Source: Rhodanobacteraceae bacterium (GTDB lineage Bacteria > Pseudomonadota > Gammaproteobacteria > Xanthomonadales > Rhodanobacteraceae). From it: a DNA stretch of 55,763 nucleotides. This document shows positions 3,346 to 55,763 of the stretch, piece after piece. Both the position numbers and the translations under genes were made by a program. Under the pieces are notes generated by a model. The model did no database searches and was not told the origin of the DNA. It worked only from the letters and a program-made list of their open reading frames with translations. The stretch spans positions 1 through 55,763 of the forward strand of contig JAEUPP010000040.1 in NCBI GenBank assembly GCA_016790075.1, given 5' to 3'. The stretch's first letter is position 1; every line of letters starts with the position of its first letter.

Positions 3346-3895
3346 AGTCCGTAAACGCGATTCGCAAGCGCTCACGCGCCGCTTGCCAAAGTCGCTGCGC
3401 AGTGCGCAATGATACGCCCAGCGCCTCCGACACCTCAGCATCGGTGAGCCCGGCGAAAACTCTCAATTCGACAACACGTATCAGCCGATCGTCATCTGCC
3501 AAAGTGCGACGCATGATGTCATCCAGCTCAAGCAGATCTGATGCCTCCTGGTCGGCAGCCCTGTCGCATGCGCCAAGTGTAGTAAATTCCACATTGTAAC
3601 CACCGCGTTTGCTCGCCACTCGGTCACGTGCATGATTTATCAGCAGCTGGCGCATCGCACACGCGGCCACATTGAAAAAATGGCTGCGGCTTTGTATGCC
3701 GTGAGCGCCCTGTTGGTGCATCCGAAGGTAACACTCGTGCACCAACGCAGTCGTGTCAGAGGCATCACCTATATTCCTTTTTTGCGCGTTATGCGCAAGG
3801 CGCCTCATGTCTCCATACAAACGTTCGACTACTGTTTCCCAGGCCATCGCCTCGCCTTGCCGGGACTGAGCCAGCAGACCAGTAATCTCGCTCAT
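3344..3895 (-). CDS. ECF-type RNA polymerase sigma factor (kinase-associated X6-like group)
   Basis: 183 residues, the normal length for an ECF sigma factor. Residues ~25-95 form sigma region 2 (DTTALVHECYLRMH and SRSHFFNVAACAMRQLL, the form seen in the TIGR02999-like group) and residues ~130-180 region 4 (LRVFAGLTDAEVSEALGVS, a helix-turn-helix). The ATG at 3895 is preceded by a G-rich stretch on the coding strand that can serve as ribosome-binding site. Members of this group usually sit upstream of a Ser/Thr kinase with TPRs and are thought to be controlled by it; here the kinase is broken, so the sigma factor may be constitutively free, controlled by a kinase elsewhere, or no longer used. 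Targets cannot be deduced. Confidence 0.92.
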   Translation of the reverse strand: MSEITGLLAQSRQGEAMAWETVVERLYGDMRRLAHNAQKRNIGDASDTTALVHECYLRMHQQGAHGIQSRSHFFNVAACAMRQLLINHARDRVASKRGGYNVEFTTLGACDRAADQEASDLLELDDIMRRTLADDDRLIRVVELRVFAGLTDAEVSEALGVSLRTAQRLWQAARERLRIAFTD

Positions 3896-4562
3896 ACCGT
3901 TCCCCCCAAGAGCTGACTAACTCCAGCACAAATAGGTTAGCGCCACAATGCGGTGGCCGTGTGCCGCTACTCCCTAGCACACGGAGCCCAGTGTAAAAAA
4001 TTGTTTCCGCGGGGAATTGATGTGCATTCCATATCCGAGTGAGGCTTCCATAAGACCTGCGTTTGCATGCCTTGCGCTCGCTTCGGCATCACGGCAACGG
4101 CGCCGTCGCACCCTCATTTCATGCGGCGGGCGGCGGGCAGGAACATGACCTGCCGGGGTGTGGTTCGCACGCCGCGGAGTCAAGCCTTGCTACTCAACAG
4201 CTCGTGCGGAGCGGCTTTGTAGCGGATCAGGCTCAACTTTCATTGCGAGACGCCAAAGCCCGCAGCCAGGCCGACCAGCGAACAGTCCGTGGCTGCCTGA
4301 CCCATGCGTGACGCATTCCAGCCTAGTTCTGGGCAATTCAGACCGTATTCGCTGGCGCAGCGATGGTTCTGCTGGGCGAACCACCACTCGGTCATCTGCG
4401 GCTCAATACGAAGGGCGCTTCGCCGACCATGCCCGCATTTACGGCGGAGAGCTGGATTCTGGCAGATCTGGACAGATTCCTTGACAGACACGGTGGCGCG
4501 GCCGAGGTGGAATTCAGATCCCATTTCAGCAGCTTTGAATACCCCGGCTACCCGTTCCCCGC
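3896..4562. other. Gene-poor stretch upstream of sigma factor
   Basis: No convincing gene is visible here. Short open frames on both strands lack recognisable domains, ribosome-binding sites or consistent codon use. The only clear structure is the 8-bp inverted repeat at 3957-3984. The right end (about 4430-4562) may be further decayed sequence of the protease remnant that follows. Confidence 0.5.
3957..3984. promoter_or_regulatory. Inverted repeat upstream of ECF sigma factor
   Basis: CCGTGTGC and GCACACGG form perfect 8-bp arms around a 12-base spacer, about 60 bases upstream of the sigma-factor start. Position and symmetry suit a dimeric repressor operator or a leader hairpin; there is no T-run, so a terminator is less likely. 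The regulator is unknown. Confidence 0.4.
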
Positions 4563-4754: not shown

Positions 4755-5431
4755 AACTGGACAGCCATGGAACTACTGTCCGCCTTGAAGTTGTCCGCAA
4801 CAATCCTTGGTAATTCCGACTGGACCTACTACGCAACAATTCATGCGACGGGCAGTGGTCAACCAGACATAAAATCGGCGACGAACTCGGCTCCACTGAT
4901 GAACAAGCGAGCCGACAACTTCGCCAACGCCGCATCGCCGACGGATTGGCGCAACCTCAAGCTTACTGCCAGAAGCTTTTTCAGGAACCCGAGCTCGACC
5001 ACGGCAACAGCAGCGGATCGGTAGGGTTTCATTGCCGTGCCAGTCTGCGCATGGCCAGCTACGGTCTTTGCCTGCCAACCGACCTTCCGGACACAAGTCC
5101 GCCGCAGCAAAGCGTTCGATGCCAAACATCGGCCACGCCGTAAGCCTATATCCGGACGTTCGCTGAAAGGATGCTGCTCCTGCTGCAATCAGGCACCTGA
5201 GATTTCACACCATTCGGAGCGGTACGTCTGAATTTTTTTGCAAGCGAGCAATTTCCGGTCGCCATCGCGACATGAAGTCCAATGATTTGTGACGCAATAC
5301 GCATTTCCCCACTATCTTGGCGCGTAGCTTGCCGTGCAACCGATGCATGTCGATCCTTGCCGCCGCCACGGCAATTCCATACGCGCCGGTATTCTCTAAG
5401 CCAAATTTCAGGCCGTTGTATAGGGGGCACC
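4755..5431. other. Gene-poor stretch between protease remnant and propeller gene
   Basis: Only short frames with no recognisable domain are present, and no tRNA or repeat was seen. The promoter of the downstream exported propeller gene must lie in the right part, but no clear -35/-10 pair was identified. Confidence 0.45.
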
Positions 5432-8417: not shown

Positions 8418-11400
8418 GTGGAACGAATGACTCGGGCTGTGGCGCAGGCCGGCGCCGCGATGGTACTGGTGCTTTGCGCTGCTATCGGACCGGTGACAGC
8501 CGCAGGCAAACCTCAGACGGAACCGGCACGACTCGCACCGAAAGTGCTGAGCGGCGAGACCCAGTTCGACACCATCCAGCTCGGTGAGGAGCCGATCAAG
8601 GGCGCGGTGCCGGCACGCGCACCGTCAGCGGCACCGCCGCCTCCGGCGCGCTATGCACCGGTCCCGTTCGGCCAGGCCTACGGCAGTGAGACGGAACCCA
8701 ACGGCACAGCCGCCACGGCCACGCCGATCACCGGCACCAACACCGTGATCCGCGCGAACCTGTACCCAAACGGCGACAACGACTTCTTTTCGTTCCAGGC
8801 CAACGCTGGCGACCGCGTCTATGCCGCGTTGATGACCTCGGCCTCGGCCGGCAACAGCACCGACAGCCAGCTGAGACTGTTCGCCAGCGACGGCACGACC
8901 GTGCTGGAGTTCGACGACGACAACGGCTCGTTCGCCGCACTGTCTTCCACGATCGCCGGCACGACGATACCAACGACCGGGACCTACTACCTCCGGGTCA
9001 ACGACTTCACCGCCGGCACGACCTCGCAGCGCAGCTATGAATTGCATTTCCGCCTCCAGTCGGGCACGCCTACCCCCGAAGTGGAAAGCAACGACACGCC
9101 GGCGACGGCCAATCCGCTGCCGGCCAACGGCTGGGTCAGCGGCACGCGCAACCCGGCTGCAGCAACCGAGGCGGACTGGTTCAGCCTCACGCTGAATGCC
9201 GGCGACACGGTCTACCTGTCGCTGGATCTCGATCCCGAGCGCGATGGCGTGACCTGGAATGGCCGCCTCGGCCTCGCCCTGTTCGGCGACGCCGCCAACC
9301 AGACTGTTGTAATCGACGATGCAGGCACTGGCGACGTCACGCCGAACCCGAATATCCCGTCTGAAGCACTGTTCATGACGGTCAAGGAAACGGGTACGTA
9401 TTTCGCGTTCGTCGATTCCGCAAGTGCCGCGACAGGCGGGCCGACCTCGACCTACCACCTCAGCGTCAGCGTGCATCCGAAGACTGACGAAGGCGTCAAC
9501 TGCACGACCTACACCAGCACCGACGTGCCCAAGACCATCGGCCCGACCAACGGCCTGGTCAGCTCGACGATCACGGTCCCGGGCAATCCGGTGATCGCCG
9601 ACGTCGACGTCATCCTCAACCTCAACCATGCGCTGATGCAGGACATCGATGCACATCTGCGCTCGCCGGCCGGCAACAACAATGGTCTGTTCTCTGACAT
9701 CGGCGCCGCCGCGACCGGCGGCCAGCAGCAGATGGACACCGTGTTCGACGACGAAGCGGGTATTCCTCCGGCGTTCACCGTACTCCGCGGCTTGCAATAC
9801 AAGCCCGAGAACAACTCCACCGCAGGTACAGCCAGCACCTCGGGCGCGTATCGCCTCTCGTCGTTCGACGGCGAGAACGCTGGGGGAACCTGGACGCTGG
9901 ACCTGTACGACGACACCACCGGTGCCAATGGCGGCACGCTGAACTCCTGGGCGCTGCGCATCTGCGAAGCGCCGCCGCCGCCGGCCTGCCCGCCGGGCTT
10001 CACGCAGACGACCGTCTTCGGGACCGACTTCGAGTCCGGCGCCGCCGGCTTCACGCATTCGGGTGCACAGGACGAATGGGAACTCGGGCTGCCCGCGACC
10101 GTGGCAACCACGACAGCCAACCCGGTTGCCGGGTTCAACACCTGCAACAGCGGCGTCTTCTGCTGGAAGACCGATATCGACAACACCTACAACGCCTCGT
10201 CGAACCAGGATCTGTTGTCGCCCAACATCAACCTTGCCGGCCTGGTTCCGCCGGTCGTCGTGCGCTGGGCGCAGCGCCATCAGGTCGAAACGGCGAACTT
10301 CGACCATTTCTTCGTCGACTTGCAGCAGGTCGGCGGCGCAACCCCGGTACGCCTGTACGAATGGATCGAGCCCACGCCGATCAGCGCCTCGGCGGGCACC
10401 GGCAACCCGCAGAACAACATTGGCGGCAGCTACGGCTGGGGCGTGTTCTCGCGCCGCGCCGACAGCCTCGCCGGTCTCAACAGCGAACTGCGCTTCCACC
10501 TCGACAGCGACACGAGCGTCCAAGTCGGCGGCGTCGCCATCGACGACGTCAGCGTAACCGCCTGCCGCGGACTATCGGCCGACGCCAGCATCACGAAGAC
10601 CGACGGCGTCACGACGGCGACGGCGGGCGGCAGCGTCACCTACACGATCACAGCCAGCAACGCCGGCCCCGATGCAGCCACCGGCGCGACCGTGGCCGAT
10701 ACATTCCCGGCCGTCGAGACCTGCACCTGGACCTGCGCCGGCGCCGGCGGCGGCACCTGTACAGCCGCGGGCAGCGGCAACATCGCCGACTTGGTGAATC
10801 TGCCGGTTGGCGGCTCTGTTACCTACACGGCGTCGTGTGCGGTGTCGGCCTCGGCCACGGGCACGCTGAGCAATACCGCGACCGTCACGCTGCCCTTCAC
10901 CGACAGCACTCCGGGCAACAACTCGGCGACCGACACCGACACGATCGTCGCGAGCGCTGATCTGGGCATCACCAAGACCGACGGCGTGACCTCGGCGACA
11001 CCGGGCGGCAGCGTCACCTATACGATCACCTCGAGCAATGCAGGACCGAGCAACGCAAGCGGTGCCACGGTTGCGGATACCTTCCCCGCCAGCCTGACCT
11101 GCACCTGGACCTGCGCGGGTGCCGGCGGTGGCACCTGCACGGCCTCGGGCAGCGGCAATATCAACGACACGGTCAATCTTCCGGCCGGCGCGAGCGTCAC
11201 GCACACCGCCTCGTGCACGATCTCCGGCAGTGCGAGCGGATCGCTGAGCAATACGGCAACGGTGGCCGCACCAGCCGGCGTGACCGATCCAACCCCCGGC
11301 AACAACTCGGCAACCGACACCGACACGCTCGCCGCCAGTGCCGACCTGTCGATCACCAAGACCGACGGCGTGACCTCGGCGACACCGGGCGGCAGCGTCA

Positions 11401-13403
11401 CCTACACGATCACCTCGAGCAATGCAGGACCGAGCAACGCAAGCGGCGCCACGGTTGCGGATACCTTCCCCGCCAGCCTGACCTGCACCTGGACCTGCGC
11501 GGGCGCCGGCGGTGGCACCTGCACGGCCTCGGGCAGCGGCAATATCAGCGACACGGTGAATCTGCCCGCCGGCGGCAGCGTGACCTACACCGCGAGCTGC
11601 GCGATCTCCGCAAGTGCGACGGGTTCGCTGACCAACACCGCAACGGTCGCTGCCCCTGCAGGCGTCACCGATCCGACACCGGGCAATAACAGCGCAACCG
11701 ACGTCGATGCCCTTGGCGCCAGTGCCGACCTGTCGATCACCAAGACCGACGGCGTGACCTCGGCAACCCCGGGTGGCAGCACGACCTACACGGTCACGGC
11801 AAGCAATGCAGGACCGAGCAACGCAAGCGGTGCCACGGTTGCGGATACCTTCCCCGCCAGCCTGACCTGCACCTGGACCTGCGTGGGCGCCGGCGGCGGC
11901 ACGTGTACCGCAGCAGGCAGCGGCAATATCGCCGGCACGGTAAATCTGCCCGCCGGTGGCAGCGTGACCTACACCGCGAGCTGCGCGATCTCCGCCTCGG
12001 CCAGCGGCAGCCTCACGAATACCGCGACGGTGGCCGCGCCGGCCGGCGTGACCGACACGAATCCGGCCAACAACTCGGCAACTGACGTCGATAGCCTTGG
12101 CGCCAGTGCCGACCTGTCGATCACCAAGACCGACGGCGTCACTAGCGCCACTGCCGGCGGCAGCGTCACCTACACGATCACGGCCAGCAATGCCGGTCCG
12201 AGTGCAGTCACCGGCGCAACAGTGAACGATACGTTCCCGCCCGTCGAAACCTGTACCTGGACCTGTGTGGGCGCCGGCGGCGGCACGTGTACCGCTTCGG
12301 GCAGCGGCAACATTGCCGACACGGTGAATCTGACCAGCGGCAGCAGCGTGACCTATACGGCGACCTGCGCGATCTCCGCGAGTGCGACCGGCTCGCTCGT
12401 CAACACGGCGACTGTCACAGCACCGGCCGGCACGACGGATCCGGTGCCGGGCAACAACAGTGCGACCGATACCGACGCGCTCGGCGCCCAGGCGCAGCTG
12501 TCGATCACGAAGACCGACGGCGTCACGAGTGTGGTCGCGGGCGGCAGCGTCACCTATGCGATCGTCGCGAGCAATGCTGGCCCTAGCGCCGCAAACGGCG
12601 CCACGGTCACCGACTCGTTCCCGACCGAGCAGACCTGCACCTGGACCTGTGCGGGCGCGGGCGGCGGCACCTGCCCGGCCTCGGGCAGCGGCAACATCGC
12701 CAGCACCGTGAATCTACCGGCCGGTGGCAGCGTGACCTACACCGCCGCTTGCACCGTGTCGGCCGCGGCAACCGGCACGACCAGCAACACGGCGACCGTC
12801 GCTGCGCCGGTGGGTGTCACCGACACGAATCCGGCCGACAACACCGCAACCGACGTCGACACGATCACGCCGATACCCGGCGCAGCATTGACCGCGAGCA
12901 AGACCGTCACGGGCAGCACGTTTGCACCTGGCACGGGAATCACCTACACGATCATCATCAATAACGCTGGCCCCGGCGCGCAGGCGGACAACCCGGGCAA
13001 CGAGTTCACCGATACGCTGCCCGCAGGCTTGACACTGGTATCGGCCAGCACCACATCTGGCACGGCGACCGCGACCGGAAACGTCGTGAACTGGAACGGA
13101 GCTATTGCCTCCGGCGGCAGCGTGACGATCACGATCAACGCGACGATCAACGCAGCAGCGAGCGGCACCATCGCCAACCAGGGCACGGTCGCGTTCGACG
13201 GCGATGGCAACGGCACGAACGAGCGCACCGTGCTCACCGATGATCCCGCCGCCGGCGGCGGCTCCGACGCAACGATCTTCAGCGTGGCCGGCGTGCCGGC
13301 CGCCCCGATCGTGCCGGTGCCGACGTTGACGCTCTGGACCCTGCTGCTGCTCGCGCTGGGCCTCGCCGGTCTCGCCTGGCGACAACGCTTGGGGAACCTC
13401 TGA
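8418..13403 (+). CDS. Large exported PPC / P-domain / DUF11-repeat protein with IPTL-CTERM tail
   Basis: About 1,661 residues. The GTG at 8418 is preferred because AAGGGGA lies eight bases upstream; ATG 8391 is upstream of that site and ATG 8427 is the other option. A signal peptide follows (VLVLCAAIGPVTA). Order: two pre-peptidase C-terminal-like domains (~80-215, ~220-350, with ETEPNGT and VESNDTP starts), a proprotein-convertase P-like domain (~355-520, ending WALRICEAP), a jelly-roll-like segment (~530-715), then seven DUF11-type repeats to about residue 1610. The C-terminus is VPVPTLTLW, a hydrophobic helix and WRQR: an IPTL-CTERM-type sorting signal, in known systems recognised by exosortase H. 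A surface adhesin or matrix role is inferred. The repeats are unusually alike at DNA level. Confidence 0.9.
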   Translation: MERMTRAVAQAGAAMVLVLCAAIGPVTAAGKPQTEPARLAPKVLSGETQFDTIQLGEEPIKGAVPARAPSAAPPPPARYAPVPFGQAYGSETEPNGTAATATPITGTNTVIRANLYPNGDNDFFSFQANAGDRVYAALMTSASAGNSTDSQLRLFASDGTTVLEFDDDNGSFAALSSTIAGTTIPTTGTYYLRVNDFTAGTTSQRSYELHFRLQSGTPTPEVESNDTPATANPLPANGWVSGTRNPAAATEADWFSLTLNAGDTVYLSLDLDPERDGVTWNGRLGLALFGDAANQTVVIDDAGTGDVTPNPNIPSEALFMTVKETGTYFAFVDSASAATGGPTSTYHLSVSVHPKTDEGVNCTTYTSTDVPKTIGPTNGLVSSTITVPGNPVIADVDVILNLNHALMQDIDAHLRSPAGNNNGLFSDIGAAATGGQQQMDTVFDDEAGIPPAFTVLRGLQYKPENNSTAGTASTSGAYRLSSFDGENAGGTWTLDLYDDTTGANGGTLNSWALRICEAPPPPACPPGFTQTTVFGTDFESGAAGFTHSGAQDEWELGLPATVATTTANPVAGFNTCNSGVFCWKTDIDNTYNASSNQDLLSPNINLAGLVPPVVVRWAQRHQVETANFDHFFVDLQQVGGATPVRLYEWIEPTPISASAGTGNPQNNIGGSYGWGVFSRRADSLAGLNSELRFHLDSDTSVQVGGVAIDDVSVTACRGLSADASITKTDGVTTATAGGSVTYTITASNAGPDAATGATVADTFPAVETCTWTCAGAGGGTCTAAGSGNIADLVNLPVGGSVTYTASCAVSASATGTLSNTATVTLPFTDSTPGNNSATDTDTIVASADLGITKTDGVTSATPGGSVTYTITSSNAGPSNASGATVADTFPASLTCTWTCAGAGGGTCTASGSGNINDTVNLPAGASVTHTASCTISGSASGSLSNTATVAAPAGVTDPTPGNNSATDTDTLAASADLSITKTDGVTSATPGGSVTYTITSSNAGPSNASGATVADTFPASLTCTWTCAGAGGGTCTASGSGNISDTVNLPAGGSVTYTASCAISASATGSLTNTATVAAPAGVTDPTPGNNSATDVDALGASADLSITKTDGVTSATPGGSTTYTVTASNAGPSNASGATVADTFPASLTCTWTCVGAGGGTCTAAGSGNIAGTVNLPAGGSVTYTASCAISASASGSLTNTATVAAPAGVTDTNPANNSATDVDSLGASADLSITKTDGVTSATAGGSVTYTITASNAGPSAVTGATVNDTFPPVETCTWTCVGAGGGTCTASGSGNIADTVNLTSGSSVTYTATCAISASATGSLVNTATVTAPAGTTDPVPGNNSATDTDALGAQAQLSITKTDGVTSVVAGGSVTYAIVASNAGPSAANGATVTDSFPTEQTCTWTCAGAGGGTCPASGSGNIASTVNLPAGGSVTYTAACTVSAAATGTTSNTATVAAPVGVTDTNPADNTATDVDTITPIPGAALTASKTVTGSTFAPGTGITYTIIINNAGPGAQADNPGNEFTDTLPAGLTLVSASTTSGTATATGNVVNWNGAIASGGSVTITINATINAAASGTIANQGTVAFDGDGNGTNERTVLTDDPAAGGGSDATIFSVAGVPAAPIVPVPTLTLWTLLLLALGLAGLAWRQRLGNL
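10578..12882 (+). repeat. Tandem DUF11 repeats, ~381-387 bp period
   Basis: Units begin near 10578, 10956, 11340, 11723, 12110 and 12491, each opening with the coding sequence for a version of ADLSITKTDG; a seventh, divergent unit starts near 12883. Every unit except the last also carries a Cys-rich core (TCTWTC then GGGTC). Units 2 to 4 share long stretches of near-identical bases, suggesting recent homogenisation, whereas units 1, 5 and 6 have drifted. Confidence 0.93.
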
Positions 13404-23131: not shown

Positions 23132-25330
23132 ATGACTACACCCATGCCTGCTTCCCTCCGATATTCCAGCAAGTTTTTTTCCACAATTTCCGCAGCGGTA
23201 CTGATGTTGTTATCCGTTCCGGCTACCTATGCGACCGAGTCCACCGGATCGATGGCAGTGGCCCGCTCCGAGCAGGCAGCGGCCAAGCTGCCGGATGGAC
23301 GCATACTTATGGCGGGCGGCAATTCCAGCGGTGGCCTGAGCACTGCAACCGCCGAGTTCTACGATCCGGCTTCCGGTGCATTCTCGCCGGCGCCACCGCT
23401 GCTGGATGCACGCGCCCAAGCCGGCGTCACGACGCTCCCCGATGGGCGCATCTTCGTCGTCGGCGGCGTGAAGCAGACATCATCGGGCGGTATGTTCCTG
23501 CGCAGCGCCGAAATCTACGACCCGTCGAGCGCGAGCTGGAGCCTGACAGCGGGTTCGCTGACTGGCAGCTCGGTTTCCACCTATCCGACGACCATCACCC
23601 TGCTCGATGGCCGAGTGCTGATCATCGACGGCACGAATTCGCAGGTGTTCGATCCGGCCAGCGGCCTGTTCACCCAGGCTATCGGACTGACCACACGGCG
23701 CAGCCGCGCGGCAGCCGAGTTGCTGCCGGACGGCCGCGTGCTGCTGGCGGGTGGTCAGGACAATAGCAACGCCGTACTGGCCAGTGCGGATATCTGGAAT
23801 CCCAGCACGAATAGCTGGAGCGCAGCCAACGGCAGCATGACGACGGCGCGCACGGCAGGCACTGCCACGCGCCTTTCTGATGGTCGGATTCTGGTTGTCG
23901 GCGGCTACAACAACGCAGGCAAGCAAGCCAGCGCCGAGCTGTTCGATCCGGTGTCGCAAACCTTCTTGCCCACCGGTGCACTGTCGACCGCACGCTCGGG
24001 ACATGTCGCCGTGGCTCTGGCCGACGGTGGCGTGCTCGTCGCTGGCGGTTACACCAATGCTTCGGTCACCAGCAGCCTTGAACGCTACAACCCGGTTTCC
24101 GGCACCTGGTCGAACGCAGGCTCACTGGCTTCGGCACGCAGTCGCTTCTTTACCGGAACGCAGTTGAACAACGGCAACGTGCTATTCGCCGGCGGCCCCG
24201 GCCCGCTCGCAACAGCAGAGCTCTACACAGGTGACACGATCCCGACCAACCTGCCGCCAGTATCGAACTTCACGGTGGCCACATCGAACCTGACGGCAAC
24301 CTTCACGGATACCTCCTCCGACCCAGATGGCACGATTGCTGCGCGCTCCTGGAATTTTGGCGACGGCACTACCTCGACCGCGGTCAATCCGGTGAAGAGC
24401 TACGCCAGCAGTGGTACCTACAACGTGATGCTGACCGTTACTGACAACGCCGGTGCGGCTACTTCGTTCACCAAGTCCGTTACGGTAAGCCTGCCCAACG
24501 TGGCGCCGACGGCGAACTTCAGCTTCATGACCAATGGACCCACGGCCAGCTTTACCGATGGCTCGACCGACAGCGACGGCAGCATTGCTTCGCGTTCATG
24601 GAACTTTGGCGACGGCACCAGCTCAACGGCGACCAACCCGAGCAAGACCTACGCGACTCCCGGCACCTACAACGTGACCCTGACTGTTACGGACAACCGT
24701 GGTGCGATCAACTCGGTCACGAAGCCAGTCACGCTGACCTGGACCAACGTGGCGCCGACGGCAAACTTCAGCGTTGTGACAAACGGGCTGACAGCCACCT
24801 TCACCGATGCCTCGACCGACAGCGACGGCAGCATCGTTTCCCGTAGCTGGAACTTCGGCGATGGCACCACATCCACGGCGACAAGCCCAGTCAAGACCTA
24901 CGCCGCTGCCGGCACTTTCACCGTGTCACTGACCGTTACCGACAACAGTGGCGCCACCAACACCAAGACCACCTCGGTGACGGTGAGTGCGCCGAGCTGC
25001 GGCGGTACGGTGTTATGCAACGGCGTGGCCGTGACAGGTCTCGCGGCCACTTCAGGCGCGACGACGGCGACCTACACCCTGGTCGTGCCGGCAGGTGCTA
25101 CCAACCTGAAGTTCACCATCGCTGGCGGCGTGGGCGACGCGGATCTCTATGTGAAGTACGGCTCCGCACCAACGATCTCCAGCTTCGACTGCCGTCCCTA
25201 CCAGAACGGCAACAACGAGACCTGCACCATCTCGAACGTGCGTGCCGGCACTTACTATGTCGTGCTGCGCGCATACAACCCGTTCAATGGAGTTTCACTG
25301 ACAGGCAGCTACACCGCTCCGGCACTGTGA
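23132..25330 (+). CDS. Exported kelch-propeller protein with three PKD domains and a PPC domain
   Basis: 732 residues with a signal peptide (STISAAVLMLLSVPATYA, cut near residue 34). Residues ~40-370 hold kelch-type propeller blades (LPDGRILMAGG, AEFYDPASGAF, LPDGRVLLAGGQ, SAELFDPVSQTF). Three PKD domains follow (~373-455, ~457-535, ~537-620), each with SWNFGDGT and TYNVxLTVTDN-type signatures. The last ~100 residues are a pre-peptidase C-terminal-like domain (VPAGATNLKFTIAGG, GDADLYVKYGS, GTYYVVLRAY). No catalytic domain was found; a carbohydrate- or surface-binding secreted protein, possibly a T2SS substrate, is inferred. Start chosen by signal peptide; the ribosome-binding site is weak. 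Confidence 0.9.
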   Translation: MTTPMPASLRYSSKFFSTISAAVLMLLSVPATYATESTGSMAVARSEQAAAKLPDGRILMAGGNSSGGLSTATAEFYDPASGAFSPAPPLLDARAQAGVTTLPDGRIFVVGGVKQTSSGGMFLRSAEIYDPSSASWSLTAGSLTGSSVSTYPTTITLLDGRVLIIDGTNSQVFDPASGLFTQAIGLTTRRSRAAAELLPDGRVLLAGGQDNSNAVLASADIWNPSTNSWSAANGSMTTARTAGTATRLSDGRILVVGGYNNAGKQASAELFDPVSQTFLPTGALSTARSGHVAVALADGGVLVAGGYTNASVTSSLERYNPVSGTWSNAGSLASARSRFFTGTQLNNGNVLFAGGPGPLATAELYTGDTIPTNLPPVSNFTVATSNLTATFTDTSSDPDGTIAARSWNFGDGTTSTAVNPVKSYASSGTYNVMLTVTDNAGAATSFTKSVTVSLPNVAPTANFSFMTNGPTASFTDGSTDSDGSIASRSWNFGDGTSSTATNPSKTYATPGTYNVTLTVTDNRGAINSVTKPVTLTWTNVAPTANFSVVTNGLTATFTDASTDSDGSIVSRSWNFGDGTTSTATSPVKTYAAAGTFTVSLTVTDNSGATNTKTTSVTVSAPSCGGTVLCNGVAVTGLAATSGATTATYTLVVPAGATNLKFTIAGGVGDADLYVKYGSAPTISSFDCRPYQNGNNETCTISNVRAGTYYVVLRAYNPFNGVSLTGSYTAPAL

Positions 25331-34680: not shown

Positions 34681-37320
34681 TCAGGCGCGCCGCAAGGCGT
34701 ATCCGGCACAGCTGCCCAGTACCAGCAGCAGCAAGAGCAGGTTCCAGGTCGACAAGGCCGGCACCGGCACGATGACAGGCGCCACTCCGTTGATGGAAAG
34801 CGGATAGGCGCGGCTGCCGCTGAACGCGTTCGCGTCGGTCGCCGTGACCGTGAAGTTGTACGGGCCACTAGTCGTCGGCGTGCCGCTGATCACGCCACTT
34901 GCGCTCAGGCTCAGGCCCGGTGGCAATGCGCCGGCGCTGACCGTGAACGTATACGGCGAAAGGCCACCCGTGGCGCTGAGGTTGGCCGAGTAGGGCTGAC
35001 CGACCGTGCCGCTGGGCAATGCAGCGGGATTGACGGTAATGGTGACGCCCGCCCCGGTCGGCGAGAACTCGACGTCGTCCCAGGCGCTGGTGCAGCTGGT
35101 ATCGGCCGGGAAATCGATCGAGCCGTCGCCGTCGTTGTCGATGCCGTCGCTGCAGGCGCGGGTCAATGCGTTCGACAGTTCGTTGAGATCGGTCGGACTG
35201 GCGCAGCCTGGGTCGGCGGCGTCGGAAAGGCCGTCGAAGTCGTTGTCCAGACCGTCGGAGCAGTCCGGTCCTTCGAAATTGTCAGAGGCCGTGGTGCAGG
35301 TCGGTGCGACACTGAAGTCGGTCAGTCCGTCGGCGTCGTTGTCAAGGCCATCACTGCACTGCGGCGGATTGACTTCACTGGTATCGGGGAATCCGCTGCA
35401 ACCGATATCGGCCGGGAAGTCGATCAGGCTGTCGCCGTCGTTGTCGAGACCGTCGCTGCACTGGGTTCGCTCGTTGGTCGACGCGGCGCTGGCGCAGCTG
35501 GTGTCGGCCGGGAAGTCGATGAGGCTGTCACCATCGTTGTCGATGCCGTCACTGCACTGGCTCACCTCACTTGCCCCCTGGGCACTCTCACAGCTGGTAT
35601 CGGCTGGAAAATCGATGAGGCTGTCGCCGTCGTTGTCGACGCCGTCATTGCACTGCGGATTGGTTTCGTTGTTGTCGTTCAGATCGGTGCAGCCCGTATC
35701 GGCCGGGAAGTCGATCAGGCCGTCGCTGTCGTTGTCGATGCCATCGCGGCACTGCGGATCCTGTTCGCTGGGGTCGTTGCGCGCGGTACATCCGGGGTCG
35801 GCCGGGAAATCGATCAACCCGTCGCCATCATCGTCGATGCCGTTGTCGCACTGGCCGAAGTTCTCGGTGTTGTCGTTAGGGAAACCGCACTGCGGGTCGG
35901 CCGGGAAGTCGATCAGGCCGTCGCCGTCGTTGTCGACCGCGTCATCGCAGGCGACGATGGCGTCTTCGGTAATGTCATGCGCAGTGGAACACTGCGGGTC
36001 AGCCGGAAAGTCGACCAGGAGATCACTGTCGTTATCGATGCCATCGCTGCAGGCAGGCGCCTCGAGCACATCGTTGGCGCTGCGGCAGCCCGGGTCGGCC
36101 GGGAAATCGATCAGGCCATCGCCGTCGTTGTCGATGCCGTCGCCGCACTGGAGGATGGTGATCGGCAGGTTGAACGTTTGCCGCTGCGCATGTGGCCAGG
36201 CAGCCGCCTGGGCGGTATCGCCGTATAACGACGTGGAGATGTGGCTGACGAACGAATGATTCGGCGAATTCTGGCCGTCGCCATTCAGGGACAGGTTGTA
36301 GCTGACGAATCCCCGGGTAAACGGGATGCTCGCCAGCACCGGGTCATCCAGCCGGATCGATTGCGTCGCCAATGGCAGCCGCGTCGCGGCCGCCGCGCTC
36401 GAGAATTCTTCCTGGTCATCGAAGGCGAAGATTCCGCCGCTGGGAATGCCCGCCGGTGGCGAGCCGCAGGCGAACGGCGCCACATTGCCGGGATCGCGCC
36501 AGACCTGCGCCGTCGTGCGGAACAGCACCTCGGCAAACGAATAGCGGCCGTCCCAGCCCGTCGGCAACGCCTCGCGGTTATCAGCACCGCTGGTACCGAT
36601 GCGGCGGGCATAGAAGGTGTAGTCGCCAGCACCGTCGGTGGCGGCGTCAGTGGAACTGGCTTCGATATGCACCAGTGCATCGCCGTAGGCGAACGACTGG
36701 GCCACGTTGGAGACCGAGGACTGCCCCCAGAGCACATTGTCGTTGCGCGCGATGCCCGTGCCGCCGGCGACGAAATAGCCAGCGTCACCGGGCACCAGCG
36801 AACTGCACGAGCCGACCACGTCGATGGTGACGTAGCCGCGCGACAGCGTGTCGCCATGCGGCGTGCTCGCGCACTGACCACCAAGCAGGCTGGACGGCTG
36901 GCCCTGGTGCGCGGCGATCAGGCCGCTGAGCTGCGTTGTGCTCAGCGCTGCCGGCGGCAGCGTCGCGGCGCAGGTCGCAAAGCCGCCGGGCGTCGATGCG
37001 GGCAGCGTGCCGGTTGCAAACAGCTGGCTAAGGTCGATCTCCGTAATGCCGTAGCCATCGAGGCGAACGTTGAAGTTGTAGGTCGGAACGCCGCGATCAC
37101 TCCACAGCGTGACATGGGCCAGCGTTTCCGTCGCCGCGCGATTGCCGACGGTGAGGACGGTCCGCGTGGCCGTCGGATTGGTCGCGTCGACCTCGAAATA
37201 CGGCAGCAGCAGCGTCGCCGCGGGTACGTTGTCCAGCGCATTGATGGTGGCGTGAGCCGGCGCGAAGGCGCCCAGCAGCAGGGCCGCACCCAGGCCGAGC
37301 AAGGAAGTGCACTTTTTCAT
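34681..37320 (-). CDS. Exported protein with 11 Asp-rich repeats, Ig-like domain and IPTL-CTERM-type tail
   Basis: 879 residues from ATG 37320, which has AGGAG upstream and opens a clean signal peptide (LGLGAALLLGAFAPAHA). Residues ~25-390 are homologous to the whole protein encoded just upstream (37338-38555): LDNVPAATLLLPYFEVD, RGYVTIDVVGSCS, GRYSFAEVLFRTTAQVWRDPG. Residues ~395-750 carry 11 units of CSDGIDNDGDSLIDFPADTSC type, a likely calcium-binding, disulfide-rich stalk. Residues ~760-850 form a putative-Ig (He_PIG) domain (PYTFTVSAGALPPGL). The tail VPVPALSTWN, hydrophobic stretch and ALRRA matches the IPTL-CTERM sorting architecture. Surface display after exosortase processing is inferred. 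Confidence 0.9.
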   Translation of the reverse strand: MKKCTSLLGLGAALLLGAFAPAHATINALDNVPAATLLLPYFEVDATNPTATRTVLTVGNRAATETLAHVTLWSDRGVPTYNFNVRLDGYGITEIDLSQLFATGTLPASTPGGFATCAATLPPAALSTTQLSGLIAAHQGQPSSLLGGQCASTPHGDTLSRGYVTIDVVGSCSSLVPGDAGYFVAGGTGIARNDNVLWGQSSVSNVAQSFAYGDALVHIEASSTDAATDGAGDYTFYARRIGTSGADNREALPTGWDGRYSFAEVLFRTTAQVWRDPGNVAPFACGSPPAGIPSGGIFAFDDQEEFSSAAAATRLPLATQSIRLDDPVLASIPFTRGFVSYNLSLNGDGQNSPNHSFVSHISTSLYGDTAQAAAWPHAQRQTFNLPITILQCGDGIDNDGDGLIDFPADPGCRSANDVLEAPACSDGIDNDSDLLVDFPADPQCSTAHDITEDAIVACDDAVDNDGDGLIDFPADPQCGFPNDNTENFGQCDNGIDDDGDGLIDFPADPGCTARNDPSEQDPQCRDGIDNDSDGLIDFPADTGCTDLNDNNETNPQCNDGVDNDGDSLIDFPADTSCESAQGASEVSQCSDGIDNDGDSLIDFPADTSCASAASTNERTQCSDGLDNDGDSLIDFPADIGCSGFPDTSEVNPPQCSDGLDNDADGLTDFSVAPTCTTASDNFEGPDCSDGLDNDFDGLSDAADPGCASPTDLNELSNALTRACSDGIDNDGDGSIDFPADTSCTSAWDDVEFSPTGAGVTITVNPAALPSGTVGQPYSANLSATGGLSPYTFTVSAGALPPGLSLSASGVISGTPTTSGPYNFTVTATDANAFSGSRAYPLSINGVAPVIVPVPALSTWNLLLLLLVLGSCAGYALRRA
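35090..36155 (-). repeat. Eleven tandem Cys-Asp repeats inside the IPTL-CTERM gene
   Basis: Units of roughly 30-37 codons each contain CxDGxDNDxD, then LIDFPADxxC, with a variable linker (for example ASEV, NNET). Two Cys per unit suggest a disulfide-stapled rod; the DxDxDG-like acid positions suggest calcium. Units in the middle (about 35385-35680) are closest in base sequence; units 9 and 10 have lost FPAD. Confidence 0.92.
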
Positions 37321-53337: not shown

Positions 53338-54456
53338 ATGAGGTTCGCCATTATTTCCGCAGCTTTGCTCGTCACCAGCGCCTGCGCGACCACCGCCGGC
53401 AGCCGGCATGCCTCGACACTCACGGGGCTTGCGCCCTCCACCGCAGCACCAGCCAACTACCAGCGCCCCTGCGAAACAGTGCCTACAACGGTACAAGCCG
53501 CATTCGAGTGCGACCGCCGCAGCATCCTCGGCATGGCCGGTGAGTTTCGGGTTACGTTTGCATTCGACGAGACCGTGGCGCTGAAACCGGGCTATGCCCC
53601 GAAGGCCGCGCAGCGCTCCGGAGGCGACGAAATCGTCCTGGTCGTAGAAGACCGGGGAGACTTCATCTCACTGCAGCACATACTCGTCGCCGGCAGCGGC
53701 AAGGACGCAACCGTCATCAAGCACTGGCGCCAGGACTGGCAGTACGAACCCAGGGACATGCTTGTATTCCGCGGCCACAAGCGCTTCGAGCTCGAACCCG
53801 TGGCCACCGGCAGAGCACACGGCGCCTGGTCGCAGTCAGTTTATGAAGTCGACGATGCGCCGCGCTATGCGAGTATCGGGCGATGGGATCATGCCAACGG
53901 TATCGACGCCTGGACCTCTGACTTCACCTGGCGGCCGCTGCCTCGGCGCGAATACACCAAGCGCAACGACTATCAGGTGCTGGGGGCAGTCAACCGTCAT
54001 ACCTTGACCCCCAGCGGCTGGATGCACGAGCAGGACAACGAGAAACTACAGCTCGACGCCGATGGCAGGACTACCGCCCTGGTGCGGGAAATCGGTATCA
54101 ACAGCTACGTGCGCACGGACCAGATCGACTTCTCCCCAGGCCAGGCCTACTGGAACAGGACCCGGGATTTCTGGCGTGAGGTGCGTGAAGCGTGGGCGCA
54201 GGCCGCACGCGAACGCAAGTCCTACGAGCTTCAGCAGATGCTCGATGAGCGCCCGCGTTTCGAGGCACTTTTTACGCTGGCGGAAAAGGCCGGCAACGGC
54301 GAAACGGTTACACGCACGCAGATCGATGCGGTGTTGCAGCGAGCACTCGCACTGGGCCCAGCCCAAACCAGCACGGCCGAGCCGCTCAACGTGCAACCCC
54401 AGGCCCCCACGCAAGCACCATTACCCGTGTCACCGGCGCAGGGAATGCCGGATTGA
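53338..54456 (+). CDS. Exported DUF6607-like protein linked to heme receptor
   Basis: 372 residues, starting 22 bases after the receptor stop, so in the same operon. A signal segment (FAIISAALLVTSAC) ends in a Cys that could be lipidated, but the lipobox is atypical. The mature protein is a beta-rich domain with repeated aromatic motifs (IKHWRQDWQYEP, MLVFRGHKRFEL, YEVDDAPRYASIGRWDH, TSDFTWRPLPRREYTKRNDYQVL, YWNRTRDFWREVREAW). It resembles DUF6607 proteins, which I recall being encoded beside TonB-dependent heme receptors; no biochemical function is established. C-terminal ~40 residues are a Pro/Gln-rich low-complexity tail. Heme release or handling in the periplasm is an inference. Confidence 0.82.
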   Translation: MRFAIISAALLVTSACATTAGSRHASTLTGLAPSTAAPANYQRPCETVPTTVQAAFECDRRSILGMAGEFRVTFAFDETVALKPGYAPKAAQRSGGDEIVLVVEDRGDFISLQHILVAGSGKDATVIKHWRQDWQYEPRDMLVFRGHKRFELEPVATGRAHGAWSQSVYEVDDAPRYASIGRWDHANGIDAWTSDFTWRPLPRREYTKRNDYQVLGAVNRHTLTPSGWMHEQDNEKLQLDADGRTTALVREIGINSYVRTDQIDFSPGQAYWNRTRDFWREVREAWAQAARERKSYELQQMLDERPRFEALFTLAEKAGNGETVTRTQIDAVLQRALALGPAQTSTAEPLNVQPQAPTQAPLPVSPAQGMPD

Positions 54457-54510
54457 CTTCTGTCGGGCAGAAGCAGGTTCCATGGCTGCATGCGAACACA
54501 GCCGATCTAC

Positions 54511-54531
54511 GCAGCGTCGGAGCGACGCTGC
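54511..54531. terminator. Hairpin after the heme operon
   Basis: GCAGCGTCG, GAG loop, CGACGCTGC: a perfect 9-bp stem 55 bases after the stop. No T-run; a processing or Rho-linked end is possible. Confidence 0.45.
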
Positions 54532-54581
54532 GCACGGCGATCCGGCAGATCAGCTATCGCGGCCGCTACTGAGTTTTCGCT

Positions 54582-54734
54582 TCACGGCTCGGAGCGGAGC
54601 TGCTGTTCCACCAGATCCATTTCAACCAGCTCAGCTTCGTCGCTATCGCGACTGGCGAACCACAGACGGCCGCCACTCAGATCGATATTGCGATCAAACA
54701 CGATCAAACACAGCCACGCACAAATCAGATTCGA
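54582..54734 (-). other. Possible remnant of a gene ending, invaded by the repeat array
   Basis: On the minus strand a 50-codon open frame ending with TGA at 54584-54582 reads FDRNIDLSGGRLWFAS, then DEAELVEMDLVEQQLRSEP. It has protein-like composition (propeller-type strand spacing) but no start, and the upstream side runs into repeat units. It could be the last codons of a former gene cut off by the array. Function unrecognised. Confidence 0.25.
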
Positions 54735-54939
54735 TCAAACACAGCCACGCACGATCAAACACAGCCACGCACGATCAAACACAGCCACGCACAAATCAGA
54801 TTAATCCGACACGCCGTCGGGATATTTTCGCATGAGATCAAACACAGCCAGATCAAACACAGCCGAGATCAAACACAGATCAAACACAGCCACGCACAAA
54901 TCAGATTAATCCGACACGCCGTCGGGATATTTTCGCATG
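54692..54939. repeat. Nested tandem/iteron-like array upstream of an HUH transposase
   Basis: GATCAAACA occurs nine times, at 54692, 54702, 54733, 54753, 54773, 54836, 54851, 54867 and 54878. Longest shared form is GATCAAACACAGCCACGCAC, a 20-bp unit that appears five times in full. A 62-bp unit occurs twice without a mismatch (54773-54834 and 54878-54939): it consists of the 20-bp iteron, ACAAATCAGATTAAT, a hairpin CCGAC-ACGCC-GTCGG, and GATATTTTCGCATG. Several copies are truncated, giving a nested arrangement. The second 62-bp unit ends 32 bases before the transposase start. REP-like target or regulatory site of that transposase is the leading explanation. Confidence 0.9.
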
Positions 54940-54971
54940 CGCTTGCAAAGCAGCAGCGGGACAATGCCCGC

Positions 54972-55763
54972 ATGGCTCAGCCCCGCTCCCAACTGGTCTC
55001 TACGGATGAACGCGGCGTATTCCACTGTGTGCAACGCTGCGTGCGCCGGGCCTGGCTATGTGGAGAAGACAAGTACACCGGCATTTCGTTTGAGCATCGC
55101 AAGCAGTGGGTCACAGACCGGATAGCCCTCGTCGGCCAGTGCTTTGCCGTCGCGATCCATGCCTATGCCGTGATGAGCAATCACCTGCATCTGGTGCTGG
55201 AAGTTGATCCGCTGGCACCGGCGCACTGGTGTGCTGAAGACATTGCACAACGCTGGGTGCGGCTGTTTCCACCGCGCGAGGCCACTGAGTTGGCGTTCGA
55301 GATGAAATGTCAGTCGGTCATCAATGATCCGATTCGTCTGGGTGTGATCCGCCAACGTCTCGGTAGCCTGTCCTGGCTGATGAAGTGTCTGGTTGAACCG
55401 ATTGCCCGCCGTGCGAATGCGGAAGACCTCTGCAAGGGACGATTCTGGGAAGGCCGCTTCAAGTCGCAGGTATTGAAAGATGAAAAGGCATTGCTGGCGG
55501 CGATGGCCTATGTGGACCTGAACCCGATTCGGGCGGGCATCACCCACCGGATGGAAGATCAACAACACACCAGCGTGAGCGAGCGGGTTCGGGAAGCGAA
55601 CGATCACCCGCAACTACTGGCCTGTGTGGTGCAGCCCAGAGTCGCGACGATCACGCCAGCTTTGCCGGATATCCGACTGCGTGACTACCTGGCGCTGGTG
55701 GAATGGACCGGCAAGCAGCTGCGGGGTGACCACGCTGTAGCTACTTCCGAAGCAGCGCCAGCG
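54972..55763 (+). CDS. IS200-like / RAYT-like HUH transposase, N-terminal 264 residues (runs off window)
   Basis: ATG 54972 opens a frame that stays open to the last base, so the gene continues outside. Y1-type HUH signature: SNHLHLVLEV, with His71-x-His73 for metal binding, and Tyr180 in AMAYVDLNPIRAGI as the likely nucleophile; GRFWEGRFKSQVLKDEKALL precedes it as in REP-associated tyrosine transposases. The N-terminal FHCVQRCVRRAWLCGED also fits. Such proteins process single-stranded hairpins at repeats rather than mobilising a full IS. The 62-bp unit just upstream contains a hairpin that could be the substrate. The antisense frame (about 55056-55613) is a shadow. Family assignment by motif only. 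Confidence 0.88.
   Translation, partial: MAQPRSQLVSTDERGVFHCVQRCVRRAWLCGEDKYTGISFEHRKQWVTDRIALVGQCFAVAIHAYAVMSNHLHLVLEVDPLAPAHWCAEDIAQRWVRLFPPREATELAFEMKCQSVINDPIRLGVIRQRLGSLSWLMKCLVEPIARRANAEDLCKGRFWEGRFKSQVLKDEKALLAAMAYVDLNPIRAGITHRMEDQQHTSVSERVREANDHPQLLACVVQPRVATITPALPDIRLRDYLALVEWTGKQLRGDHAVATSEAAPA

Follow-up and report, generated by a model that had tools for sequence, protein, structure and literature searches.

Truncated copies of a mobile element's own end in tandem beside a Y1 HUH transposase gene

Gene and array at the contig end

The window, by which we mean the whole stretch of 55,763 nucleotides that was analyzed (contig JAEUPP010000040.1 of a Rhodanobacteraceae bacterium, assembly GCA_016790075.1), ends in a Y1 HUH transposase gene preceded by an array of short direct repeats. 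The gene is cut at 55763, where the contig also ends. Between 54692 and its start codon at 54972 lie nine gapless direct units, each starting with GATCAAACAC. Units 1 to 8 are exact prefixes of unit 9, with lengths of 10, 30, 20, 20, 62, 15, 14, and 11 nt; five of these prefixes are followed by no extra nucleotide, two by one, and one by two. The features, read from the sequence unless another basis is given, are as follows.

54660..54691, + strand: flank outside the array, abutted by unit 1; presumably host DNA
54692..54701, + strand: truncated unit 1, a 10-nt prefix of the element end
54702..54732, + strand: truncated unit 2, a 30-nt prefix plus one extra nucleotide
54733..54752, + strand: truncated unit 3, a 20-nt prefix, the "iteron" of an earlier note on this DNA
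54753..54772, + strand: truncated unit 4, a 20-nt prefix
54773..54835, + strand: truncated unit 5, a 62-nt prefix plus one extra nucleotide; first 62-bp copy
54836..54850, + strand: truncated unit 6, a 15-nt prefix
54851..54866, + strand: truncated unit 7, a 14-nt prefix plus two extra nucleotides
54867..54877, + strand: truncated unit 8, an 11-nt prefix
54878..54971, + strand: complete left end up to the start codon, holding the second 62-bp copy (basis, homologous left ends at other copies)
54889..54896, + strand: terminal core, 11 nt in from the start of the unit, GCCACGCA here and GGACACCC in most relatives (by eye, from the alignment and end tables)
54972..55763, + strand: Y1 HUH transposase, 264 codons visible, with its 3' part past the contig end (basis, HxH at residues 71 to 73 and Y180 in YVDLNP)

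The earlier note was right that a 62-bp unit has two identical copies (54773-54834 and 54878-54939), and the ATG of the HUH gene at 54972 lies 32 bases past the second copy. The truncated copies that it saw around these units are likewise real, with nine GATCAAACAC starts in the array, none in the rest of the window, and a density far above chance. One 10-mer occurs nine times within 300 bp in the array, compared to at most three times in 551 of the 555 300-bp windows of the 55.8-kb stretch, and the remaining four windows all overlap the array. The earlier note described an array built from a 20-bp iteron plus a hairpin. There is no such composite unit: one and the same element end, truncated at two different lengths, gives the 20-bp "iteron" and the 62-bp "iteron plus hairpin", and the window array as a whole consists of truncated copies of the mobile element's own left end.

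The same note suggested a previously undescribed REP family acting with its enzyme and proposed a search of the genome for the unit. The 14-mer GATCAAACACAGCC has seven exact matches in the 5.6-Mb genome, all seven inside the window array, so that the iteron is absent elsewhere in the genome, an outcome that the note itself had named as refuting its suggestion; with one mismatch, the 14-mer was found at two single places. Homologues of the left end gave 13 matches, of which 12 lie at transposase copies (three of these in the window array). The 5-bp hairpin is indeed present in both 62-bp copies, but the left end shows no folding advantage over shuffled sequence (z of 0.08 on the + strand and -1.03 on the - strand), and the hairpin is not conserved among element copies. 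In a set of 16 left ends from this genome, pairing of the 5-bp stem was seen in 58.8% of cells, which is below shuffled pairing, and none of the 16 carried two-sided changes in the stem. At the left end, the only end at which this was scored, the unit hairpin is preceded by ATTAAT and not by GT[AG]G. The right end of one copy (L021), the sole right end folded, folds better than shuffled sequence (z of -3.5 and -2.6). The earlier note is partly supported: the repeats and the HUH enzyme are real, and the REP reading is not supported.

Other tandem repeats lie elsewhere in the window at 1290-1686, 10590-12745, 24290-24951, and 35406-35949, with periods of 120, 384, 249, and 96 to 99 bp, respectively. 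The neighboring gene at 53338-54456 belongs to the DUF6607 family and follows a TonB-dependent receptor gene. Rfam at its gathering threshold gave no family for positions 54000-55763, the phage search gave no match, and PHROGs gave no family.

The transposase and its relatives

The window protein has His71-x-His73 and Tyr180, as had been claimed from the sequence, with an HUH-to-Tyr spacing of 109. The tyrosine opens the motif YVDLNP (residues 180 to 185), in which Y180, V181, L183, N184, and P185 are invariant in 42 sequences; the HUH motif reads NHLH, compared to the majority consensus NHYH of 42 relatives. Complete copies in the same genome encode 322 amino acids (8 of 8 translated). Profile matches were weak: all 13 members of A1 matched Pfam Y1_Tnp at E values up to 1 (best, 4e-5), the window protein had no Pfam match at 1e-3, and its score against NCBIfam REP_Tyr_transpos (NF047646) was 43 bits, below the cut-off of 80. 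The window protein was modelled with AlphaFold (mean pLDDT, 89), and the best Foldseek match of the model was the RAYT (TnpAREP) structure 4er8 (E of 2e-4; TM-score of 0.39 by query and 0.58 by target), followed by IS200/IS605 transposases at E values of 0.03 and above. The single-tyrosine HUH fold is common to the IS200/IS605 group (IS608 and ISDra2), for which we know of no end arrays. The subclass 1.1 enzymes of that group have Y---Q and a short core-only protein, in contrast to Y---NP and 322 amino acids here.

By its length, YVDLNP motif, HUH-Tyr spacing, and copy pattern, the enzyme fits TnpAY1 subclass 2.3, a placement that draws on sequence features. In the account of this subclass by Quentin et al. 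(2018; PMC6006769), the median length is 325 amino acids and the spacing is 110, the YVDLNP motif is present, the HUH motif is NHYH (NHLH in the window protein), and several moderately diverged copies per genome occur, mostly in gammaproteobacteria. Our observations add terminal cores and end arrays. The main text of that paper, which defined the subclass, does not use the words tandem or array and reports no REP-like structures for it.

A total of 25 protein matches were recovered from the genome itself, many of them partial and at contig ends, and 12 other long matches were 72 to 94% identical to the window protein. At E values of 1e-20 or better, the protein was found in 16 of 61 genomes (own included), with at most 22 matches each. 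A scan of named genomes, which covered the best 80 matches and is no census, left 79 loci, mostly from gammaproteobacteria. Among the matches listed were Tahibacter, Dyella, Colwellia, Psychromonas, Microbulbifer, Endozoicomonas, and others, as well as a few MAGs labelled Verrucomicrobia, Opitutae, or Planctomycetota. Three scan loci repeated earlier ones and were removed from the array and end counts, after which no other identical end regions were left.

Several loci had arrangements of their own. The contig that carries one relative (L158) comes from a MAG with the label Klebsiella pneumoniae, which may reflect a binning error. Genome G039 holds complete and truncated copies within 18 kb of one contig (C1, 2466676-2484438), all on the + strand, and the truncated copies keep the N-terminal side. 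Self-comparison suggests direct tandems of transposase copies or parts over ~6 kb in Dyella flava (L108) and Microbulbifer thermotolerans (L169). Two orthologous copies near a tRNA-like gene (L135 and L136), ~79% identical over 4 kb and possibly domesticated, had no arrays at their ends. At L192, a 3' gene fragment left of the element (1150-1371) shares 84% identity with the 3' end of a gene ~4 kb downstream (5166-5388).

Arrays at element ends and their edges

Arrays resembling that of the window numbered 77 and were found in 65 of 146 loci, mostly in gammaproteobacteria, at either element end; a core-defined array was absent at the other 81. Repeat-rich 400-bp windows, defined by at least five repeated 11-mers, made up 116 of 268 beside the gene, compared to 7 of 173 in distal positions, and the gene-adjacent ones were divided between the left (59 of 140) and right (57 of 128) sides. 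The link between repeats and enzyme drawn in the earlier note stands as this association, and a functional connection would be a reading of it. The other comparison which that note proposed, between genomes with and without the transposase, was made by a left-end motif pattern alone: the pattern occurred in 7 of 16 genomes with the gene and in 3 of 45 without it, counting hits that were only in part checked as ends, and it does not match the diverged ends of the window's own genome.

Examples of units in that genome are GGAAACCTGGCC, CGTAAACCCAGCCACCC, and CGGAACAGCAGCCACCC at left ends and GGGTGTCCTAGGTTCG and GGGTGTCCTAGGGAACCC at right ends. A CGGCCGAAAGCGG unit is common to two copies ~5.4 kb apart (L029 and L034), and CCATAC-type ends recur in G039. 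The same layout was seen in 18 ends of distant relatives, picked for high repeat counts. In the arrays inspected at other copies, the units carry their own locus's outer sequence, left or right. Read outward, both ends bear a TGGGTGTCC-like core, with 90 left and 76 right ends matching at least seven of its eight letters. These eight letters were the search criterion; a preceding T (93 to 94%) lies outside it. Beyond the core there is a weak base preference for ~10 nt and then almost none.

The outermost 9 nt were more alike within genomes (4.9 of 9 positions at left ends and 4.0 of 9 at right ends; 34 pairs each) than between them (~2.7). Left and right outer sequences were more similar than expected when all elements were shuffled (n = 59; P = 2e-4), and a shuffle within genomes showed no excess (n = 20; P = 0.48). 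A guide model, in which the left and right outer sequences of each element would match specifically, was rejected on the within-genome shuffle, and the similarity is a lineage-level preference. Two further observations concern repeats beside elements. At L018, downstream of the element (L193), a diverged C-terminal fragment is followed by its own right-end-like array of GTGCGTGTCCTTGAGTGTT units, and arrays may accordingly outlive the gene. At L121, a CRISPR-like array begins next to the right end of a relative, 274 bases past the transposase gene, and continues as far as the locus extends, with GTTTCAATCCGCGCGCGCTTCGAGTGAAGCGCGCGAC present at least 38 times at a spacing of ~71 bases.

The edges of the units differ in kind. 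We compared 137 adjacent pairs of core-bearing units, drawn from 77 arrays and selected by a minimum of 5 shared nt on the outer side of the core. On that side, the shared stretch was 8 to 10 nt in 81 of the 137 pairs (median, 9; interquartile range, 8 to 10), while inside the core it was 0 to 58 nt in 135 pairs and 109 and 150 nt in the other two (median, 5; interquartile range, 1 to 12). The outer and inner spreads differed (P = 1e-5; Brown-Forsythe test), also with one value per array (P = 6e-4) and in the 72 pairs sharing at least 5 nt on both sides (P = 8e-4). Of 12 shuffled cores, 10 gave 6 to 23 pairs compared to the 137 real ones; the remaining two coincide in part with the real core when shifted, and their pairs numbered 92 and 74. 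A core-free k-mer test found the outer extent less variable in 20 arrays, more variable in 8, and equal in 10. The outer word was present four or more times in 62 arrays, and in 50 of these the edge lay 7 to 9 nt out under a rule whose floor was 7. The edge is thus near-fixed and not a single base, falling at 7 to 10 nt in most arrays, 11 nt in the window, and ~12 to 15 nt in Pseudoalteromonas examples.

Junction overlap was measurable at 70 of 307 junctions and reached at least 3 nt at only 5 of these. At 106 of the 307, 1 to 5 nt of the match were missing. Deviations of at least 6 nt (131 of 307) arose because units had diverged or had been mis-delimited by the automatic rule. The window array, whose core has diverged, was itself mis-delimited by the automatic rules in the junction set and in the pair test, where it contributed one false pair on a chance core inside a unit; that its units start at a fixed point 11 nt out from the aligned core is based on the alignment and on the prefix anatomy.

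Repeats of this kind also occur in Pseudoalteromonas replicons deposited as complete, with exact right-end repeats of 205, 131, and 178 bp (L198, L203, and L211), where an assembly artefact is accordingly improbable. An insertion between the isocitrate dehydrogenase gene and the acetolactate synthase genes is common to two P. shioyasakiensis strains. The distance from the isocitrate dehydrogenase gene to the transposase is 212 bp in one and 385 bp in the other, and the longer region has a repeated block; the two regions are only 84.9% identical, so that the strains are not a close pair. The element is absent at this site in three other records. A genus search for an empty site, made with one element and its flanks, found the left flank in all seven relatives (one as a short piece) and the right flank in none. 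At the element-free Pseudoalteromonas sites, the junctions were too diverged to call the outermost 8 to 9 nt target or element, and neither set of comparisons contained a clean empty site. In Pseudoalteromonas sp. HL-AS2 (L201), ~110 bp with a CGGGTGGCGCTTCGCTTAACCGACCTACG-type palindrome lie on both sides of the element (~3690-4000 and 5150-5330), and the element-free site of HL-AS1 has one palindrome similar to the CGGGTGGCGCTTCGCTTAACCGACCTACG type.

How the arrays may arise

The near-fixed outer and scattered inner edges, mirrored at both ends, point to site-specific cleavage at the terminus followed by an unspecific stop. We lean, by little more than an even judgment, toward arrays built by transposase nicking, short strand-displacement copying, and tyrosine-mediated joining. 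The transposase would nick each strand at the element's 5' terminus, so that the flank ends in a 3'-OH and the element in a tyrosine-linked 5' end. The flank 3'-OH could then prime inward strand-displacement synthesis of variable length, and the new 3' end would be joined to the tyrosine-held 5' end, so that one truncated unit is added outside the old end. Repeated rounds, each adding one truncated unit, would build the array. Such joining needs no microhomology, in agreement with the rarity of overlaps of at least 3 nt (5 of 70). In IS200/IS605 elements, the left-end cut puts the tyrosine on the 5' end of the element. For a related TnpAREP in vitro, the account in PMC8266576 has the Tyr-5'P link resolved by the 3'-OH of an added oligonucleotide.

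Longer units extend into the gene. N-terminal fragments lie upstream of complete elements at five loci (codons 1-18 at L064, 1-90 at L073, 1-74 at L075, 2-26 at L076, and 1-34 at L098), and C-terminal fragments lie downstream at L095 and L076. The L075 fragment is identical to the neighboring copy L073 at 74 of 74 residues and to its own element at 68 of 74, which suggests that not all units need be strictly local. At L098, an N-terminal fragment (codons 1-181) lies downstream of the element, a position that nicking, copying, and joining as proposed do not predict.

The main rival would have the transposase make the fixed end by a nick or break and host repair build the units, either by re-priming of the 3' end on end sequence nearby or by its joining through a host ligase or an error-prone polymerase. 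We think this unlikely, while giving it appreciable weight: it accounts for the near-fixed outer edge and for the apparent filler in some units, and the junctions missing 1 to 5 nt of match suit host end-joining or template switching as well. The scarcity of overlaps at measurable junctions counts against it, as does the window array, where five of eight units join without an extra nucleotide and two of eight with one. It is improbable that the arrays reflect one-ended transposition in trans, by which truncated copies would be inserted repeatedly beside a resident end. One precise and one variable end are the pattern that PMC3189936 describes for IS801, and IS91 shares the HUH chemistry. Also in agreement would be the truncated copies of G039, which lie no more than 18 kb apart and retain the N-terminal side, and the L075 fragment, which resembles its neighbor. 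However, IS801 fragments in that description are trapped at new sites and stop at a preferred tetranucleotide, whereas here the units stack at the element's own ends, their inner stops are scattered, and those inspected carry the outer sequence of their own locus, as local copying predicts.

Ordinary slippage during replication, or unequal recombination at an end prone to repeats, independent of the enzyme, seems quite improbable to us. Short-unit tandem arrays can arise in this way, and regular multi-unit blocks are present in some arrays (the right end of L066 and the left end of L200), but the breakpoints are asymmetric, with a near-fixed outer edge and a scattered inner one, and repeats are rare in the distal flanks of the same loci (7 of 173). 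Mobilization of a REP family by its RAYT is scarcely probable at all. The closest solved fold is a RAYT, a weak NF047646 match exists, and the HUH folds are related. RAYT/REP and REPIN systems, as described in PMC3116915 and PMC8266576, nevertheless combine dispersed palindromes with a domesticated enzyme, unlike the non-dispersed, locus-specific end copies and multicopy enzyme here. Dispersed REPs, a low-copy gene, a GT[AG]G hairpin foot (at the left end), and a REP_Tyr_transpos score above the cut-off are all missing in our case; the iteron has no dispersed copies, 12 of 13 left-end matches lie where there is a transposase copy, and the hairpin is not conserved. Replication-initiation iterons were set aside as well: the gene encodes a transposase-type HUH enzyme, and the units are truncations, not iterons.

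TIRYT enzymes and TIRtrons (Di Nocera et al. 2013; PMC3733652) are similar in that their description gives Y1 enzymes with inverted terminal repeats, some in dimers or clusters. The TGGGTGTCC-like core that faces outward at both ends of relatives is likewise an inverted terminal repeat, of which the window copy shows the left end only. The TIRYT consensus GGGGWSAS differs from TGGGTGTCC and the core GGGTGTCC here, 20 of 26 TIRYT map to subclass 2.1 in the classification of PMC6006769, and fixed-edge truncated arrays do not appear in the passages of PMC3733652 on these elements. That repeats grow in tandem near HUH enzymes is already known: REPIN clusters in tandem, flanking DNA included, are reported for P. 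fluorescens SBW25 (PMC3116915), large GTAG REP clusters show tandem reiteration with flanking DNA of variable length (PMC3733652), and Marinomonas REPs are concentrated near their gene (PMC8266576), in each case according to the relevant sections of those papers. What print lacks, as far as the literature searched goes, is the fixed-edge, prefix-truncated form at element ends, of which we found no description in the open-access literature searched.

More tentatively, it is possible that the transposase acts as a local DNA writer and that the arrays are a readable log of cleavage events and of the reach of synthesis. If so, transposases would have a further reaction beside excision, insertion, and REP dispersal, and REP-like tandem clusters might originate in this way. 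Papers cited here treat as open both the way in which TnpAREP-type Y1 enzymes move DNA and the origin of tandem REP clusters. In dozens of elements, the arrays place a candidate cleavage point with an accuracy of a few bases, and this footprint is accessible to checks in vitro. The draft genome has contig breaks at copies of the element, to which multicopy elements with such end arrays may contribute. Arrays could also serve as strain markers, as the length of the region differs between the two P. shioyasakiensis strains at their common insertion.
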